Assembly (NCBI GenBank): GCA_003165115.1
Contig: PLSJ01000364.1
Coordinates: forward strand, 1 to 12,990
Direction of reading: 5' to 3'
DNA length: 12,990 nt
Source of the DNA: Syntrophaceae bacterium
GTDB taxonomy: Bacteria > Desulfobacterota > Syntrophorhabdia > Syntrophorhabdales > WCHB1-27
Part shown: positions 1 through 7,943 of the stretch, in pieces
Layout of the letters: each line of letters begins with the position of its first letter
Numbering within the stretch: the stretch's first letter is position 1
Notes under the pieces: generated by a model
Databases searched by the model: none
What the model saw: the letters and a program-made list of their open reading frames with translations, nothing else
What the model was told of the DNA's origin: nothing
Made by a program: the position numbers and the translations under genes

Positions 1-2027
1 CCCATGCGGATGTATTTGAGGATATTGACGAAAACCTTGCGGCCTTCGATCACACCATCATCCAGCACCATGAGATCCTTTTCGAGGAGGATGACGACTG
101 CGGCGGCCTTGGCGATATCGACAGCGGAATCGACCGATATGCCCACATCGGACACATGCAACGCGGGTGCGTCGTTGATGCCGTCTCCCATAAAACCGAC
201 GACGTGGCCGTTCGTCCGCAGGTTGCGGACAATCTCCTCCTTCTGCGACGGTGAAAGCTTGACGAAAATGTCCGCCTCCCGCACCGTCTTCGAGAAGGAC
301 TCGGAGGAAAGCTCCGACAGCTCCGACCCGTTAACGATGCGTTCGCTCGAAAGGCCCACGTCCCGGCAGACTTTTTGGGTGACCAGGTGGTTATCGCCTG
401 TCAGGACTTTGACCCGCACGCCTGCCTCCTTGAGCAAATCGAGGGCTTTCGCGGCCGAGACCTTCGGCGGATCGAAGAACGCAATATACCCGAGCAGAAT
501 GAGCTGGCATTCGTCTGCCGTGGAAAAGGCCCGTTTGTCGCGGGGAAACTCGCGGTAGGCTATGCCCAGCACCCGGAAGCCGTCCCTGTTGAGCCCTTCG
601 ACCTCCTCGAACAGGTCCGCCCGGATCATGGGGATGAGCGGGTAGACTTCGTCACCGATCTGATATTGCGTGCAGCAGGCGTATATCTCCTCGACGGCGC
701 CTTTGCAGATAAGCACGTTGTCGCCCTCGTAATCGACCACGACCGACATCCGGCGCCTCTGAAAATCGAAGGGCAGCTCGTCGACGAGGGTGCAGTCCCG
801 CTCGACGTCCAAATCGACGTGCTTGAGGACCGCCCGGTCGATCAGGTTGCGCAGGCCCGTCTGATAGTAGCTGTTGAGGTACGCGTAGGTGAGCGCGTCG
901 GTGCTCGGGTGGCCGATAATATCGACGCTGCGCTCCAGCACCACCTTATCCTCGGTAAGGGTGCCCGTCTTGTCGGTACAAAGGATGTCGATGGCGCCCA
1001 GGTTCTGGATCGAGGGAAGCCGCTTGACGATGACCTTTTTCTTGGCCATCGTGAGCGCCCCCTTCGCCAGGTTCACGGTGACGATCATGGGCAGCATCTC
1101 CGGGGTGAGGCCGACGGCGACGGACAGGCCGAACAGGAGGGCCTCCACCCAGTCGCCCTTCGTCATTCCCACGATGAAGAACACCGCGGACACCATCACC
1201 ACCATGAACCGGATCATGAGCCAGGTGAAGGAGCGCACGCCCCGGTCGAAGCTCGTTTCTTCCCTGCCCCCGGCCAGCCGTTCCGAGATGGACCCGAAGA
1301 CGGTATGCGACCCCGTGTTAATGATGAGTCCCCGGGCCGAGCCGCTCGTCACCGTGCTGCCGAGAAAGCAGGCGTTCGGCAGCTCCAGGGCGGGTCTATC
1401 GGCCACCTTGTCCGTCTCGCTCGTCTTTTCGACGGCCATAGACTCCCCCGAGAGGGCGGACTGGCTGACAAAGAAATCCTTCGCGGTCAGCAGGCGCAGG
1501 TCGGCGGGGATAAGGGACCCGGCCTGCAGGAGCACGACGTCACCCGGCACGACTTCCGATACCTTGATCTCGGCCGCCTTGCCGTCCCTCAAGGCAACCG
1601 TCCGTGACTGCACCCGTTTTCCGAGGGTCTCGACGGCCCGATTCGACCGGCTGTCCAGGATATAGGAAAGGCCGACGCTTAAGAGGACCATCGCACTGAC
1701 GATGAACGTCGACTTTATCTCTCCGATTATCCCCGAGATCACCGCAATCACCAGCAACTGAATGACCAGGGGGCTCTTGCAGCGATGGACCATATCCTCC
1801 CAGAAGCCGAGCCGCTTCGTATGGGTCATTTCGTTCGGACCGTACTCATCCAGGCGATGTTCGACATCAATGCTGCCGAGGCCCTGGGCGGTCGTGCCGA
1901 GGGCACCCATGGCTTCCGCCACGGGGAGCGTGCACAGGTCGATGAGGCGACGCTCGTCTGCCGTGACGATTCGCCGGCCATTGCCCCTGAATGCGTCGGG
2001 GATCGACTTTATGACGTTATTGCCCAT
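1..2027 (-). CDS. mgtA: Mg2+-importing P-type ATPase, MgtA family (3' end outside window)
   Basis: This encodes an inner-membrane P3B-type ATPase that imports Mg2+ using ATP. The first 675 codons are present; families of this type run to about 850-900 residues, so the last membrane helices lie beyond the left edge. The N-terminal cytoplasmic segment is followed by two membrane helices (about 88-124), the actuator domain with SGES at 193-196, two further helices (about 269-288 and 294-315) with the MgtA-like LTPEMLP, the phosphorylation motif DKTGTLT with D352, TGD at 543-545 and GDGINDAP with D615 and D619. The stretch just before the edge (EKDLMVLDDGVIEGRK) is characteristic of MgtA rather than Ca2+ or heavy-metal pumps. 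The ATG at 2027 is fixed by an in-frame TGA two codons upstream and by AGGAAG eight bases before it. Expression is probably controlled through the long leader upstream. Confidence 0.93.
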   Translation of the reverse strand, partial: MGNNVIKSIPDAFRGNGRRIVTADERRLIDLCTLPVAEAMGALGTTAQGLGSIDVEHRLDEYGPNEMTHTKRLGFWEDMVHRCKSPLVIQLLVIAVISGIIGEIKSTFIVSAMVLLSVGLSYILDSRSNRAVETLGKRVQSRTVALRDGKAAEIKVSEVVPGDVVLLQAGSLIPADLRLLTAKDFFVSQSALSGESMAVEKTSETDKVADRPALELPNACFLGSTVTSGSARGLIINTGSHTVFGSISERLAGGREETSFDRGVRSFTWLMIRFMVVMVSAVFFIVGMTKGDWVEALLFGLSVAVGLTPEMLPMIVTVNLAKGALTMAKKKVIVKRLPSIQNLGAIDILCTDKTGTLTEDKVVLERSVDIIGHPSTDALTYAYLNSYYQTGLRNLIDRAVLKHVDLDVERDCTLVDELPFDFQRRRMSVVVDYEGDNVLICKGAVEEIYACCTQYQIGDEVYPLIPMIRADLFEEVEGLNRDGFRVLGIAYREFPRDKRAFSTADECQLILLGYIAFFDPPKVSAAKALDLLKEAGVRVKVLTGDNHLVTQKVCRDVGLSSERIVNGSELSELSSESFSKTVREADIFVKLSPSQKEEIVRNLRTNGHVVGFMGDGINDAPALHVSDVGISVDSAVDIAKAAAVVILLEKDLMVLDDGVIEGRKVFVNILKYIRM

Positions 2028-2162
2028 ATCTCAAGCTTCCTGTGACGCTCGACCGGGAATGAACGGGCGAACGCAAAGAGACGCACCCGGCTTTAGGGCG
2101 TCCGTCAAAAAGCGCTGATCGGCGGACCAAAACCACATTAGGTTGCCGCCCGTTTCGACCGT

Positions 2163-2199
2163 GCAATTGCTTATTTACTACTGCTTATTGCTGCTAGTT
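2163..2199 (-). repeat. Low-GC patch with repeated AATAAGCA in mgtA leader
   Basis: On the minus strand AATAAGCA occurs twice (2189-2182 and 2175-2168), a partial copy lies at 2199-2192, and the 8-bp palindrome GCAATTGC sits at 2170-2163. The patch is strikingly AT-rich against GC-rich surroundings. It could be an unstructured RNA segment, a protein-binding site or chance; no known element is recognised. Confidence 0.35.
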
Positions 2200-2223
2200 A
2201 CTTGTTGCGGAAGCGAAGGAGGG

Positions 2224-2275
2224 AAAAATTCTCCCCTCAGGAGACCGCTTAAGGCCCAAGAGGAGAGAGGGGAAA
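2224..2275 (-). terminator. Candidate attenuator terminator in mgtA leader
   Basis: On the minus strand TTTCCCCTC (2275-2267) can pair with GAGGGGAGA (2238-2230) over nine base pairs including one G-U, and TTTTT follows at 2228-2224. A smaller alternative hairpin, TCTCC/GGAGA, uses the same 3' arm. The loop of the larger stem is long (28 bases) and the T-run is short, so termination strength is uncertain. The element lies between the leader ORF and mgtA, where an attenuator would be expected. Confidence 0.4.
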
Positions 2276-2296
2276 CACTTCAGGAAAATGTTCCTC
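2267..2296 (-). promoter_or_regulatory. Candidate antiterminator hairpin competing with the attenuator
   Basis: On the minus strand GAGGAACA (2296-2289) can pair, with bulges, with TGTTTCCCCTC (2277-2267), closing an 11-base loop. This would occupy TTTCCCCTC, the 5' arm of the proposed terminator, so the two structures exclude each other. Its 5' arm begins immediately after the leader ORF stop codon (2299-2297), so a ribosome at that stop would mask it. It is imperfect and needs folding analysis. Confidence 0.3.
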
Positions 2297-2300
2297 TCAT
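2280..2300 (-). CDS. Possible six-codon mini-ORF overlapping the leader ORF stop
   Basis: An ATG at 2300 overlaps the TGA of the upstream leader ORF (ATGA) and opens a six-codon frame, MRGTFS, ending in TGA at 2282-2280. Translation could only occur by reinitiation after the leader ORF, as there is no separate strong ribosome site. An ORF this short is easily found by chance. It matters only because translating it would place ribosomes inside the proposed antiterminator hairpin. Confidence 0.15.
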   Translation of the reverse strand: MRGTFS

Positions 2301-2362
2301 GCCTTGAGCGGAGCGGTTTCGCTCCCACCACACAAATTCTGACCGCCAGGGTCGTCTTCCAT
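2297..2362 (-). CDS. Putative MgtL-like leader peptide upstream of mgtA (21 aa)
   Basis: This short ORF begins MEDDPGGQNL and ends SETAPLKA. AAGGAG (2378-2373) sits ten bases before the ATG, and a TTGACA/TAAAGT promoter would start transcription about 30 bases upstream, so it is well placed as the first translated frame of the mgtA message. It is too short for default gene callers. The opening EDDP run of acidic residues plus proline recalls enterobacterial MgtL (N-terminus MEPDP in E. coli). In MgtL, acidic and proline residues destabilise ribosomes at low Mg2+ and so raise mgtA expression. The rest of the peptide does not resemble MgtL. The codons for GGSETAP overlap a GGAGCG/CGCTCC hairpin (2325-2310), and TTCC/GGAA flanks the start codon. 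The role is inferred; coding status rests on ribosome site, promoter and position. Confidence 0.5.
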   Translation of the reverse strand: MEDDPGGQNLCGGSETAPLKA

Positions 2363-2397
2363 ACGGAAACCACTCCTTAAAATAGGGAACCTTCGAA

Positions 2398-2426
2398 ACT
2401 TTAAGCCTGCCCTCCCCTTTTGTCAA
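2398..2426 (-). promoter_or_regulatory. Sigma70-type promoter for the mgtA leader
   Basis: A perfect TTGACA (2426-2421) is followed after 17 bases by TAAAGT (2403-2398, four of six matches to TATAAT), giving a start near 2391. It lies just downstream of a terminator-like element and about 370 bases before mgtA. Confidence 0.65.
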
Positions 2427-2430
2427 CAAG

Positions 2431-2458
2431 AAAAAAGTGGACGGCGTATTCCCCCGTC
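2431..2458 (-). terminator. Terminator of the MFS-Pat-thioesterase operon
   Basis: On the minus strand GACGG (2458-2454) pairs with CCGTC (2444-2440), followed by CAC and then six Ts (2436-2431). A stronger hairpin, GTCCCC/GGGGAC, lies at 2483-2467 immediately after the thioesterase stop. Together they look like an end-of-operon signal separating this operon from the mgtA promoter. Confidence 0.55.
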
Positions 2459-2486
2459 ATCGACGCGTCCCCTTACCGGGGACCGC

Positions 2487-2909
2487 CTACTCCGCAAGGA
2501 AGGGGACGTGCTCCTTTTTCCTGTAGACGAGCGCCTGGCAGACGGCGACGAGGCCGTCGTCGTCCTCCACCGTGATATGGTAGGTCGCGGTCTTTCTCCC
2601 CCTGTTTATTTCCTGGGACCTTGCGCGGAGCATGCTTCCCTTCTTCGCGGGTTTAATATAGGTCACATTCATGTTGAGGGCAACGGCGACCGTGCCGTGG
2701 CTGTTCGACGAGATTTCAAACGCCTCGTCGATAAGCGAGAAGACCGCCCCACCGTGGGCCGTTCCGTGCAGGTTGTCCATGGTCTCTCTGTATTCCATCT
2801 CGCACGCCGCATAGCCATCGCCCACTTCGGTGAGCCTGATCCCCATGAACCGCGCGAAAGGCTCTTTCGAAACGCTCATTACAAATGCGCCGACCCTGTC
2901 CTGATCCAT
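2487..2909 (-). CDS. PaaI-like hotdog-fold acyl-CoA thioesterase
   Basis: The 140-residue product matches the length of single hotdog-domain thioesterases, which hydrolyse acyl-CoA or aryl-CoA to free acid and CoA as cytoplasmic multimers. The signature N46-x2-G49-x2-H52-G53-G54 followed by D61 is present (NLHGTAHGG ... SLIDEA), and the central helix is followed by the expected strands (NVTYIKPAKKG, TATYHITVEDDDG, VAVCQALVYRK). The ATG at 2909 is preceded by AAGGAGG ten bases away; a second Met at residue 11 lacks such a site. The gene begins 26 bases after the acyl-CoA synthetase/acetyltransferase gene ends and is the last of three cotranscribed genes. Substrate cannot be read from sequence; the company of an acyl-CoA binding protein suggests relief or recycling of CoA esters. 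Confidence 0.87.
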   Translation of the reverse strand: MDQDRVGAFVMSVSKEPFARFMGIRLTEVGDGYAACEMEYRETMDNLHGTAHGGAVFSLIDEAFEISSNSHGTVAVALNMNVTYIKPAKKGSMLRARSQEINRGRKTATYHITVEDDDGLVAVCQALVYRKKEHVPFLAE

Positions 2910-2935
2910 GGTAATGAACCCTCCTTAGTGTTTCG

Positions 2936-5365
2936 TCAATCTCCTGCTCGTACCTTCAGCGACGCGCCGATGATGCCGCCCGGCTGAAGGACCGTCTTAA
3001 AGCCAAGACCCCGCATGAGCTTCAACATCCGATCGTTTTCCGAGAGCGTGATGGCGTAGACCTCCTCCAGCCCCTTCTCCCTGGCTATGCCTATCAGCAC
3101 CTCGACCAGCTTCTTGCCGAGCCCTTTGCCCTGATAGTCATCGTGGACGAGCACGGCGAACTGGGCCTTCGAGCCGGGTTCAATGATGAGTCGCGAGATA
3201 CCCACGATCCGCTTTGTATCGCCTCCGCCTACCTCGGCGACAATCGCGATTTCCCTGTCATAGTCGACGTTGCAGAACCTGACGAGCATGTTGTGGGTCA
3301 TATCTTTTATGACGCTGAAAAACCGCTCCTTCACCGTCTTTTCCGAAAGCGTGTAAAAGAGGTCGTGCTGCAGCGGCTCGTCCTCGGGCCGTATGGGCCG
3401 CAGGAGCACCTCGGTCCCGTCCCGCAGCGTCCAGGGTGTGATATACCGCGTCGGATAGGGGGTGATGACAAGGTGCGGATAAGCGCCCGTCGCGACAGCG
3501 TGGAGCGGTCCAAGGGAAATGTGTGCCTCCAGGGCGCGAACCCTGCCGTTCATGACGGCGAGGGGATCGATGCTAAGAGAGTCTATCTCGGGAAAATCGA
3601 CTACCAGGCTGGAAACCCTTATCAATATCTGCTCAAGCCTGGATAAATCCACGGGTTTCCCGCCCCCGTACCCGGAGAGCACGGTGAATGCCTTCGATTC
3701 CTCGATGAGCCTCCTAGCGAGCGTCTGGTTCAACGGCGGCAGTCCTATCGCGCAGTCTCCGAAAATGTCCCGGGCCATTCCCCCGAGGCCGAAGCGTATA
3801 ACGGAACCGAACGTCCTGTCCCGCGTCATGGTCACATACAGCTCATAATCGACGGTCTCCCGGCCGGCCCTGCCCATGGGGATCCCATAACCCGTGAGAA
3901 CGCTCTCGCACTGCCTTGGGGTCAGCACCCGCGCGCCTTCTCCGACCGCCTTTTGGAGGACCGCTTTCAGAGGGCCGGTGGGCGGCCGCCGGCCCGTCGA
4001 GAGGTCGGCGGGTGTTTCATAGAGAAGGTCAAGGCTTCTCTTGTATCTGAACATCTCCATATAGGTCGCCACGGCTTCTTCAGGGGTCGCGTAGGCGGGC
4101 ACCTTCCGCTCCCGCAGGACCTTCATCCCCTCCTTCATCTCGCGGCCGCCCATCCACGCGACAATAACCGGTTTTTTCGTTTCCCCCGCGATCGATGCGA
4201 TCATCCCGGCAAGTTCCGGGGGCATGGCGGCAGCGAGGGCCGTGCAGACGACGAGGAGCCCGTCGACGCCCCGGTCCTTCAGACATACCCGCATGGTCTT
4301 CTCGTACCGGTCGGTGCCCGCCTGACCGCCGAGGTCGACAGGGGTCTGCCCGTTCCATTGCCGGGGCTGGAGAGGCGCCAGGGCCGCCACGCTCTCCGGG
4401 GAAAGCTCCGCCGGCCGGCCGCCCTGCCCCGCGAGCGCATCGATTGCCATGGCCGCGATGGTGCCGGCGTTCCCGATGACGGCAAGACGCGGGCCCGCGG
4501 GCAGGTATGTCGAATCGAGCACCTGGGCCGCGTTGAACAGGTCTTTCGCCTCGGCGACCCTCACGACCCCGGCCCGCTTGAAGACGGCCTCGTAAACCGC
4601 ATCATCGCCGTGGGAGCAGTCGCCATGCGCGGCGAACCTGCCGGGCTTCACCACGATTATCGGTTTGCTGCGGGCGAATCCACGGGAGGCGCTCATGAAT
4701 TTTCGCGCATCGGCCACGTGCTCCATATTGAGCAGGACACTCGCTGTCGCGGGATCGTTGCCCAGGAAATCGATGAGGTCGCCGAAGTCGACATCGATCA
4801 TGGAACCGAGGGAGACAAATATGCTGAAGCCGACCTGGGCCTCCGACCCCCACTCCAGCACGGCGCTCCCCAGCTCGCCGCTCTGGGCGATGAACGCTAT
4901 GTTCCCCGGCCGGGGGTCCGCACGCAAGACACTCGCATGGAGCCCAATCTCAGGCCTGATGATGCCGAAAGAGCCGGGACCTATGATCCTCATGCCGTAT
5001 CTCTCCCGGACCCGGACCAACTGCTCCTCCAACCCCTTGCCTTCCTCGCCCGTATCGCCAAAACCCGTGGAAATGATGACGGCCCCTTCCGTCGCGGCGC
5101 GACCGCACTCTTCCAGTATTTCCGGCACAAAAGCGGCCCTGACGGCAATTACCGCCAGATCGGGCGTGCGGGGAAGCGCGGCGACGGACGGATAGCACGG
5201 CAGACCGAGTAGCTCTTTCCTGTGAGGGTTTACGGGGAATATCCTGCGTCCGTCCGAACGGCACAGGTTTTCCAACAGGGCCCTTCCTATGGTCCCTTCT
5301 TTTTCGCTGGCGCCGACAAGCGCGACCGTCGCCGGATCGAGCATCCTCTTCAGATCGCCCATCAC
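2936..5365 (-). CDS. PatZ-like acyl-CoA synthetase (ADP-forming)/GNAT fusion, protein lysine acetyltransferase, with shortened ATP-grasp
   Basis: The 809-residue product has the domain order of Pat/PatZ (about 886 residues in enterobacteria), which acetylates lysines of proteins such as acetyl-CoA synthetase. A CoA-binding Rossmann domain (about 5-130, VALVGASEKEGTIGR) and succinyl-CoA-ligase-like domains (about 150-440) come first; H247 lines up with the phosphohistidine of active ADP-forming synthetases, though nearby residues differ. The ATP-grasp part runs about 470-620, and a C-terminal GNAT domain about 645-800 carries the acetyl-CoA loop QGKGLG at 745-750. From memory of PatZ, some 75 residues are missing between GYGIPM (492-497) and YELYV (507-511). 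These would contain the nucleotide-binding lysine and HKS-type loop, so the synthetase half is probably inactive and serves as a ligand-sensing or scaffold module. The start is GTG at 5365 or ATG at 5362, with AGAGG about ten bases upstream of the GTG. The gene is 15 bases after the MFS gene. Confidence 0.85.
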   Translation of the reverse strand: MMGDLKRMLDPATVALVGASEKEGTIGRALLENLCRSDGRRIFPVNPHRKELLGLPCYPSVAALPRTPDLAVIAVRAAFVPEILEECGRAATEGAVIISTGFGDTGEEGKGLEEQLVRVRERYGMRIIGPGSFGIIRPEIGLHASVLRADPRPGNIAFIAQSGELGSAVLEWGSEAQVGFSIFVSLGSMIDVDFGDLIDFLGNDPATASVLLNMEHVADARKFMSASRGFARSKPIIVVKPGRFAAHGDCSHGDDAVYEAVFKRAGVVRVAEAKDLFNAAQVLDSTYLPAGPRLAVIGNAGTIAAMAIDALAGQGGRPAELSPESVAALAPLQPRQWNGQTPVDLGGQAGTDRYEKTMRVCLKDRGVDGLLVVCTALAAAMPPELAGMIASIAGETKKPVIVAWMGGREMKEGMKVLRERKVPAYATPEEAVATYMEMFRYKRSLDLLYETPADLSTGRRPPTGPLKAVLQKAVGEGARVLTPRQCESVLTGYGIPMGRAGRETVDYELYVTMTRDRTFGSVIRFGLGGMARDIFGDCAIGLPPLNQTLARRLIEESKAFTVLSGYGGGKPVDLSRLEQILIRVSSLVVDFPEIDSLSIDPLAVMNGRVRALEAHISLGPLHAVATGAYPHLVITPYPTRYITPWTLRDGTEVLLRPIRPEDEPLQHDLFYTLSEKTVKERFFSVIKDMTHNMLVRFCNVDYDREIAIVAEVGGGDTKRIVGISRLIIEPGSKAQFAVLVHDDYQGKGLGKKLVEVLIGIAREKGLEEVYAITLSENDRMLKLMRGLGFKTVLQPGGIIGASLKVRAGD

Positions 5366-7308: not shown

Positions 7309-7878
7309 CTACCCGGACTCCTTCTCCCAGAAGAGCATCTGCTTGATCCTCGTCATCAGGGCAGGGATGACCGCAACATTCTTCACGGGCTGAAGCTCTT
7401 TCCACTCCCGCCAGTCCCCCAGCAATTCCTGGTGCAGCTCCATACAGCCCCGGTGAAACCCCACTTCCGAGCCGGGGTTCACGTGGCGCGCACATATCGC
7501 CACCTCTTCACACAATCTTTCCTTTTCCTTTTCGGGCGCATTGAAGACCACGACCCTGGTGGCCCTGTCCGGGTCCCCCGAACCGAAGCGCCCCCTGAGC
7601 CTCCTCTCGCCCAGGAACCGGGTCTCGAATTCGCCGATCAGGCCGAGGCACTCCTCTTCGTCTTTCACGACCGCGACCACCTTCCAGCATGTACCGGCCG
7701 GGCCGAGACGAAGCACGCGCTTCCCTTCCCTGAGCTGGTCGTAGAGAGAGGTAATGCAGGGGACACATGTCCCATAGATTGCCTGTTTGGTCGCGGCCAG
7801 ATGCGGGTCGCTTTCAAAGCTCACCCACTTCAGTGCCTTCTCCGTGTAATATCGCCTGTCGAAGTAAAACTTCCCCAT
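7309..7878 (-). CDS. Unrecognised cysteine-rich soluble protein
   Basis: I do not recognise this 189-residue protein. It has no signal peptide or membrane helix. It carries seven cysteines (38, 41, 64, 77, 123, 129, 145), including a CVPC pair at 38-41 and a C-x-H-rich region (CARHVNPGSEVGFHRGC, 129-145) with H132, H142 and H149, which could bind a metal or form a redox centre. Hydrophobic strands such as CWKVVAVV and ATRVVVFNAP alternate with charged helices, suggesting a compact alpha/beta fold. The ATG at 7878 gives MGKFYFDRRYY; an in-frame GTG at 7902 would add eight residues, and neither has a strong ribosome site. It is transcribed alone, divergent from the histidine kinase and convergent with the cupin. 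Codon pattern and charge distribution look like a genuine gene. Confidence 0.7.
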   Translation of the reverse strand: MGKFYFDRRYYTEKALKWVSFESDPHLAATKQAIYGTCVPCITSLYDQLREGKRVLRLGPAGTCWKVVAVVKDEEECLGLIGEFETRFLGERRLRGRFGSGDPDRATRVVVFNAPEKEKERLCEEVAICARHVNPGSEVGFHRGCMELHQELLGDWREWKELQPVKNVAVIPALMTRIKQMLFWEKESG

Positions 7879-7943
7879 CTCTTTTCTTCTGTATGGTACC
7901 ACTTTTCCCTGGTTCTTTCTTCAATACCTGTCCCGACTCGTCC

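Follow-up and report, generated by a model that had tools for sequence, protein, structure and literature searches.

A candidate leader peptide upstream of mgtA in a Syntrophaceae bacterium belongs to a family found before three kinds of Mg2+ transporter genes

The DNA under study is contig PLSJ01000364.1 of assembly GCA_003165115.1, from a Syntrophaceae bacterium; its 12,990 nt are referred to here as the window. At one end of it, on the minus strand, lies mgtA (3..2027; 675 codons), which encodes a magnesium-translocating P-type ATPase, starts with the ATG at 2027-2025 and is incomplete, the contig ending at window base 1. The encoded protein scores 782.1 bits with TIGR01524 (cut-off 610.75), and its top PDB chains are MgtA. 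Upstream, on the same strand, a short ORF at 2297..2362 encodes MEDDPGGQNLCGGSETAPLKA followed by a stop codon, and 269 bases separate its end from mgtA. The ORF is preceded by the Shine-Dalgarno (SD) sequence AAGGAG (2373..2378, minus strand) and by a promoter whose -35 element, TTGACA (2421..2426, minus strand), and -10 element, TAAAGT (2398..2403, minus strand), are separated by a 17-nt spacer. The first-pass annotation had described a 21-codon ORF with its SD and a TTGACA/TAAAGT promoter ahead of mgtA, and all of these are present as claimed. By size alone the leader ORF is unremarkable, since 14 ORFs of at least 20 amino acids (aa) overlap positions 2020-2490. Elsewhere on the minus strand, positions 2939-5365 encode a CoA-binding/succinyl-CoA ligase/ATP-grasp protein fused to a GNAT acetyltransferase domain, and a 197-aa ORF at 7312-7902 had no match in a Pfam search at the threshold used.

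The 22-nt start of the ORF, ATGGAAGACGACCCTGGCGGTC, has exactly one further exact copy in the 3.9 Mb assembly of its own genome, and relatives occur in other genomes. Searches for this short form that were blind to context covered 99 genomes and then the 46 genomes of the order, where nine loci were found in eight genomes. The window's ORF start recurs with few substitutions in seven further genomes, six of them found in the 99-genome search and one with model R1. Given the exact second copy and this recurrence before transporter genes, the leader ORF goes beyond chance; a chance origin was rejected on its recurrence in the own genome, the order and the phylum. Codons 2-7, the acidic-proline core EDDPGG (2342..2359, minus strand), are conserved as E(D/E)DP(G/N)(G/S) in all nine short forms, which have about seven residues in common. 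From PMC11282234 and PMC8092293, this core would be a ribosome-destabilising stretch. A purine-rich SD and, by reading, an upstream TTGAC(A/T) are likewise found in 9/9 short-form loci.

The short-form pattern search listed 24 places, eight of which are members. Ten other matches (L005, L014, L015, L016, L020, L023, L024, L025, L027 and L028) were inspected one by one and set aside as non-members; the remaining six places listed are L017, L018, L019, L021, L022 and L026. In the order, model R1 returned nine matches at E < 1e-10, every one a member; a weaker match, L053, lies inside a coding gene. Over 395 genomes of the phylum, none of the R1 matches beyond the order was convincing, and the one inspected, L059, lies opposite a membrane protein gene; L136 and L139 are pattern matches that lack the remainder of the leader. 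A search of the plasmid collection gave no match.

The genes downstream of the nine short-form loci are mgtA in three cases (window, L034 and L010), an NRMT gene (Nramp-related Mg2+ transporter) in five (L012/L013, L007, L008, L011 and L009) and a porin gene in one. The NRMT assignment is based on the PDB chain of EleNRMT, 7qia, which scored 228 bits with the L013 protein (second-best chain, 63) and 380 bits with the L009 protein (second-best, 96); the L007, L008 and L011 proteins are 78-82% identical to that of L013. NRMTs carry Ala in place of Met at one position (PMC8806188), and at this position the L013 and L009 proteins have Thr, as judged by eye from the alignments. Adjoining the NRMT gene, L013:4880-6154 encodes a product that combines a PRC barrel with MgtE_N and CBS domains and resembles a cytoplasmic MgtE sensor minus the channel. 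MgtE-like fragments have been reported beside Nramp-related genes, and M-boxes before such genes revealed Mg2+ transport (PMC4072509). In the same paper, an NrmT whose gene lacks an M-box is reported to have transported Mn2+; therefore, NRMT identity alone is no proof of Mg2+ transport. The porin locus is the second copy in the window's own genome (L003); the porin is of the OprB family (PF04966) and had no match in the PDB. The leader copy and the porin gene lie at L003:1501-1584 and 1864-3021; the porin gene is not obviously a Mg2+ gene, and the leader before it might point to a path for Mg2+ through the outer membrane.

Other genera of the order have a longer form of the leader ahead of mgtA, with the pattern M(G/S/D)(D/N)SDG(S/G)...EE..DDPGS (or, more briefly, M(G/S/N)DSDGS...EE..DDPG), 36-45 codons and the acidic-proline core at about residues 20-26. 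In the order, it precedes mgtA at L107-L110 and L114-L116. The exact gap-free pattern matched 7/395 phylum genomes, and all seven matches are leaders before mgtA or mgtE. Two of them are in G013 and G014, and five lie outside the order: L150 and L151 before mgtE (TIGR00400, 323 and 348 bits; cut-off 232.75) and L152-L154 before mgtA, where TIGR01524 is the best family for proteins truncated by the locus end. L150 is the sole long-form match in the class of G363 (85 genomes). L142, L146 and L148, which match the long pattern with one mismatch, are not leaders. Three protein searches added 66 database proteins, the weakest with E near 1 or above. These relatives, of 36-79 aa, are deposited as 'hypothetical protein' where named and come from Syntrophorhabdaceae, uncultured Desulfatiglans and Deltaproteobacteria; P0001 is identical to the L107 peptide and the L150 peptide lies within P0011, so that the genomes of both loci can be placed. 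The earlier remark that such ORFs are missed by gene callers is thus correct in part, the longer form having these deposited relatives.

Among the first 30 residues, each of the 74 distinct long peptides compared has a pair of acidic residues that are either neighbours or one apart, and 68/74 have D/E-P in the same stretch, both being raw counts with no background rate. In this regard, an acidic stretch has been reported to act only when located within the first 30 aa (PMC11282234). The proline is lost in P0009, P0015, P0016 and L115. Based on the order of the parts, the short form may be a long leader shortened to its EDDPG core. Counting both forms, a leader precedes mgtA in 10/22 loci of the order that score above the TIGR01524 cut-off; L118, with 6 bases upstream, is outside the test, and a 23rd match, G026:C145, has no locus. 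Among Nramp loci of the order, a leader occurs in 5/23, and 16 of the 21 testable ones (L092 and L096 being untestable) are without it. The proposal of an analogous leader peptide for mgtA gains a conserved ORF, SD, promoter and acidic-proline core, and a sequence family of its own outside Enterobacteria; against it stand the 11/21 testable mgtA loci of the order without a leader and the loss of the proline in some relatives. At the level of sequence, the family and its place before Mg2+ transporter genes are established.

What has been conserved, peptide or RNA, bears on two other explanations. The start codon and SD are kept in 21/21 member DNA loci, nine short and twelve long. The first-pass annotation had held that frameshifts, or loss of start or SD, with mgtA conserved would speak against the ORF, and none is seen in these leader-bearing loci. 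In the alignment that it proposed, the ORF, SD and start are indeed conserved; the expected synonymous bias is weak (codon-position bias, p 0.098 for 7 loci and p 0.047 for 12), and the nucleotides are conserved too, including third positions of the ORF start, with CCT in 9/9 short forms and GGC in 12/12 long forms. This nucleotide conservation would suit an element that acts as RNA alone (a new Mg2+ riboswitch or a protein-binding RNA) and carries the ORF only incidentally, as would a small hairpin that the start could form. In the window (2341-2353, minus strand) this is a 4-bp hairpin, GACC/GGUC, a pairing counted in six short forms; long forms can pair GACU/AGUC at nearly the same place. 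We regard such an element as unlikely in view of the invariably kept start codon and SD, the synonymous changes in the fourth and fifth codons of the long-form N-terminus, the L116 indel, which is the sole one among codons 8-14 and consists of whole codons, and a peptide kept in dozens of relatives. Additionally, a search of the whole of Rfam, M-box included, matched no family at the gathering threshold in the window or in 26 loci other than the NRMT and porin ones.

Behind DPGS, the L110 RNA is read as RPVTESVLLI, while P0008 ends in SDRLLNRFY and P0009 in ATGY, which correspond to the other two frames; the DNA was seen for L110, and the frames of P0008 and P0009 were read from their peptides. 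The use of three frames points to a C-terminus kept as RNA and an N-terminus kept as peptide. It is also at odds with a small protein that has a function of its own and acts on the transporters in trans, a possibility that would account for the 45-aa class, in which length and sequence are largely kept, and for the fact that proteins of such size exist as predictions. With the C-terminal third of the L110 relatives read in this way, and so few residues shared by the short forms, a trans-acting protein seems very unlikely.

The RNA of the window leader can be divided into four strands, all on the minus strand. Strand 1, GGTGGGAGCG (2320..2329), is the 5' arm of a hairpin within the ORF, and strand 2, ACCGCTCC (2310..2317), is either the 3' arm of this hairpin or an alternative partner of AGCGGT (2244..2249), a loop sequence complementary to ACCGCT at 2312-2317. 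This loop belongs to a second hairpin, T, formed by strand 3, CTCTCCTC (2260..2267), as the 5' arm and strand 4, GAGGGGAG (2231..2238), as the 3' arm; the equivalent of strand 4 in the mgtE relatives holds the mgtE SD. Directly after T comes the terminator-like AATTTTT (2224..2230). By eye, a U-run right behind T is present in the window and L007 and absent from the other loci examined. A scan of the window found 3 terminator-like sites against 0.9 expected, and the GC-rich stem of T with the U-run behind it has the form of a putative intrinsic terminator. The whole leader folds better than its shuffles (z -3.60); the 3' part of T alone, a piece that excludes strand 3, behaves like its shuffles (z +1.07).

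In the long forms, T lies just after the ORF, with GGUUCRCCUC as strand 3 and GAGGYGAACC as strand 4, and comparison of the sequences shows it to be conserved: over 12 long forms, 94.1% of cells are paired, against 35-51% in slid controls. Its covariation score was reached by 4/500 shuffles; four of its 17 pairs changed on both sides, a count reached by 154/500 shuffles. Before mgtE (L150 and L151), strand 4 coincides with the mgtE SD and extends as far as the start codon, and this SD is predicted to be buried (z -5.1 and -5.3). Masking of a transporter SD by the hairpin is found at these two loci and not in the window, where some 200 nt separate T from mgtA.

Alternative pairing of strand 2 was examined in both forms. 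In the short form, ACCGCU of the ORF pairs better with its own AGCGGU in T than with foreign partners (162/5040 permutations); L008 and L011 are without this arrangement and this set of hairpins. In the long form, strand 2, located where the ORF ends, prefers its own strand 3 (40/5040 permutations, 7 loci); with 12 loci the figure is 541/20000, in a run in which strand 3 of L110 was misplaced. This pairing beats shuffles in L107-L109, L115 and L116 (at most 2/200 each) and partly in L151 (11/200), with no excess over shuffles in L150, L152-L154 and L114. For strands 1 and 2 of the long forms, own partners were no better than foreign ones (1649/5040).

In our view, the ORF is probably translated, as the leader peptide of an attenuator that acts in cis on mgtA, and we infer that Mg2+ would be its signal. 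The passage of the ribosome through the first acidic-proline codons (MEDDPGG) would set the folding of the RNA behind it. With ample Mg2+, a ribosome at the stop codon would cover strand 2, T would form, and transcription would end before mgtA. With scarce Mg2+, ribosomes would destabilise and leave at EDDP, so that strand 2 and the ORF end could pair with parts of T and mgtA would be transcribed. Before mgtE, control would be translational, since there the hairpin hides the mgtE SD. Fold prediction for the window gives T a probability of 0.66 in free RNA, 0.57 with a ribosome at codon 5 and 0.99 with a ribosome at the stop. This change fits the direction reported for MgtL, in which complete translation leads to termination and early drop-off to read-through (PMC11282234, PMC11552253). 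Among the 19 loci modelled, the predicted change from the early to the stop position reaches +0.2 or more in four (window, L009, L107 and L108), within 0.1 in five (L034, L010, L109, L110 and L115) and -0.2 or lower in 10, largely where the stop codon lies 8-14 nt before strand 3. Given these mixed changes, the direction of the switch may differ between members.

A translated leader could also respond to a cue other than Mg2+, such as the supply of proline or charged tRNA-Pro or the general speed of translation, the Mg2+ genes being incidental. The leader often has DP and EP codons, and the prolines of mgtL matter for mgtA control (PMC11552253). Short forms, however, conserve just one proline, and in several long relatives the proline is gone and the paired acidic residues are kept, which makes this explanation distinctly unlikely.

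The long-form mgtA loci suggest how the leader came to stand before mgtA. In 7/10 of them, an open frame extends from the place once taken by the mgtE start to a stop codon that shares exactly four bases with the start of mgtA. Such overlaps number 7 against 1.54 expected (P 2e-5, single-base shuffles), a P value that is too small because the loci are related. The frame ends one base before mgtA in L108, fourteen before in L153 and not near it in L110. In L114, the frame between leader and mgtA begins with 44 mgtE residues (64% identity, E 1e-16), and ORF2 of L154 weakly resembles MgtE (E 0.014). These observations suggest that mgtA took over the leader and ribosome-binding site (RBS) of mgtE through coupling. 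More tentatively, we propose as a possibility that one Mg2+-responsive leader module was handed between three unrelated transporter families across part of the phylum, changing its output from gene to gene: RBS masking before mgtE; the same hairpin plus a short coupling ORF (clearly an mgtE stub in one case) with a stop codon that runs into the start of mgtA; and attenuation of transcription in the window's short form, reduced to its EDDPG core. At its boldest, this proposal would turn the long form's conserved DxDG N-terminus into a nascent-chain metal sensor.

A leader family placed before three unrelated kinds of Mg2+ transporter gene (mgtA, mgtE and NRMT) is apparently undescribed: the open-licence literature searched yielded no paper with the peptide strings or describing the family. 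In the literature examined, control of Mg2+ uptake by failure of leader translation has so far been described in enterobacteria. A separate family in another phylum, if real, would make ribosome fragility a general Mg2+ sensor, and the leader would mark Nramp-type genes that move Mg2+, as the M-box did (PMC4072509). Its natural variants could also serve to separate the roles of acidic residues, prolines and RNA.

MgtL, the peptide encoded in the mgtA leader of Salmonella and E. coli, has further prolines and arginines after its EPDP. The leader described here resembles it in its short acidic-proline N-terminus (MEDDP, against EPDP in MgtL; PMC11282234), in its place ahead of the same transporter family and in the predicted alternative RNA folds behind the ORF. 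It differs from MgtL in its hairpins, in serving mgtE, NRMT and porin genes as well and, in the long form, in the position of the acidic-proline core at about residues 20-26. The 8-codon ORF mgtQ, before Salmonella mgtB, likewise has acidic codons and RNA strands pairing 1:2, 2:3 and 3:4, with a 3:4 hairpin that masks the RBS of an Mg2+ transporter, as before mgtE here (PMC8092293). However, mgtQ is much shorter and lies within an operon; in the window, the distance from the leader to the mgtA start rules out direct masking of the RBS. The M-box (ykoK) riboswitch has the same kinds of targets, including Nramp-related genes beside an MgtE-like fragment (PMC4072509), but is an RNA aptamer without a leader ORF. 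The best reading is that the leader would work like MgtL and mgtQ, a likeness in mode of action and not necessarily in descent.
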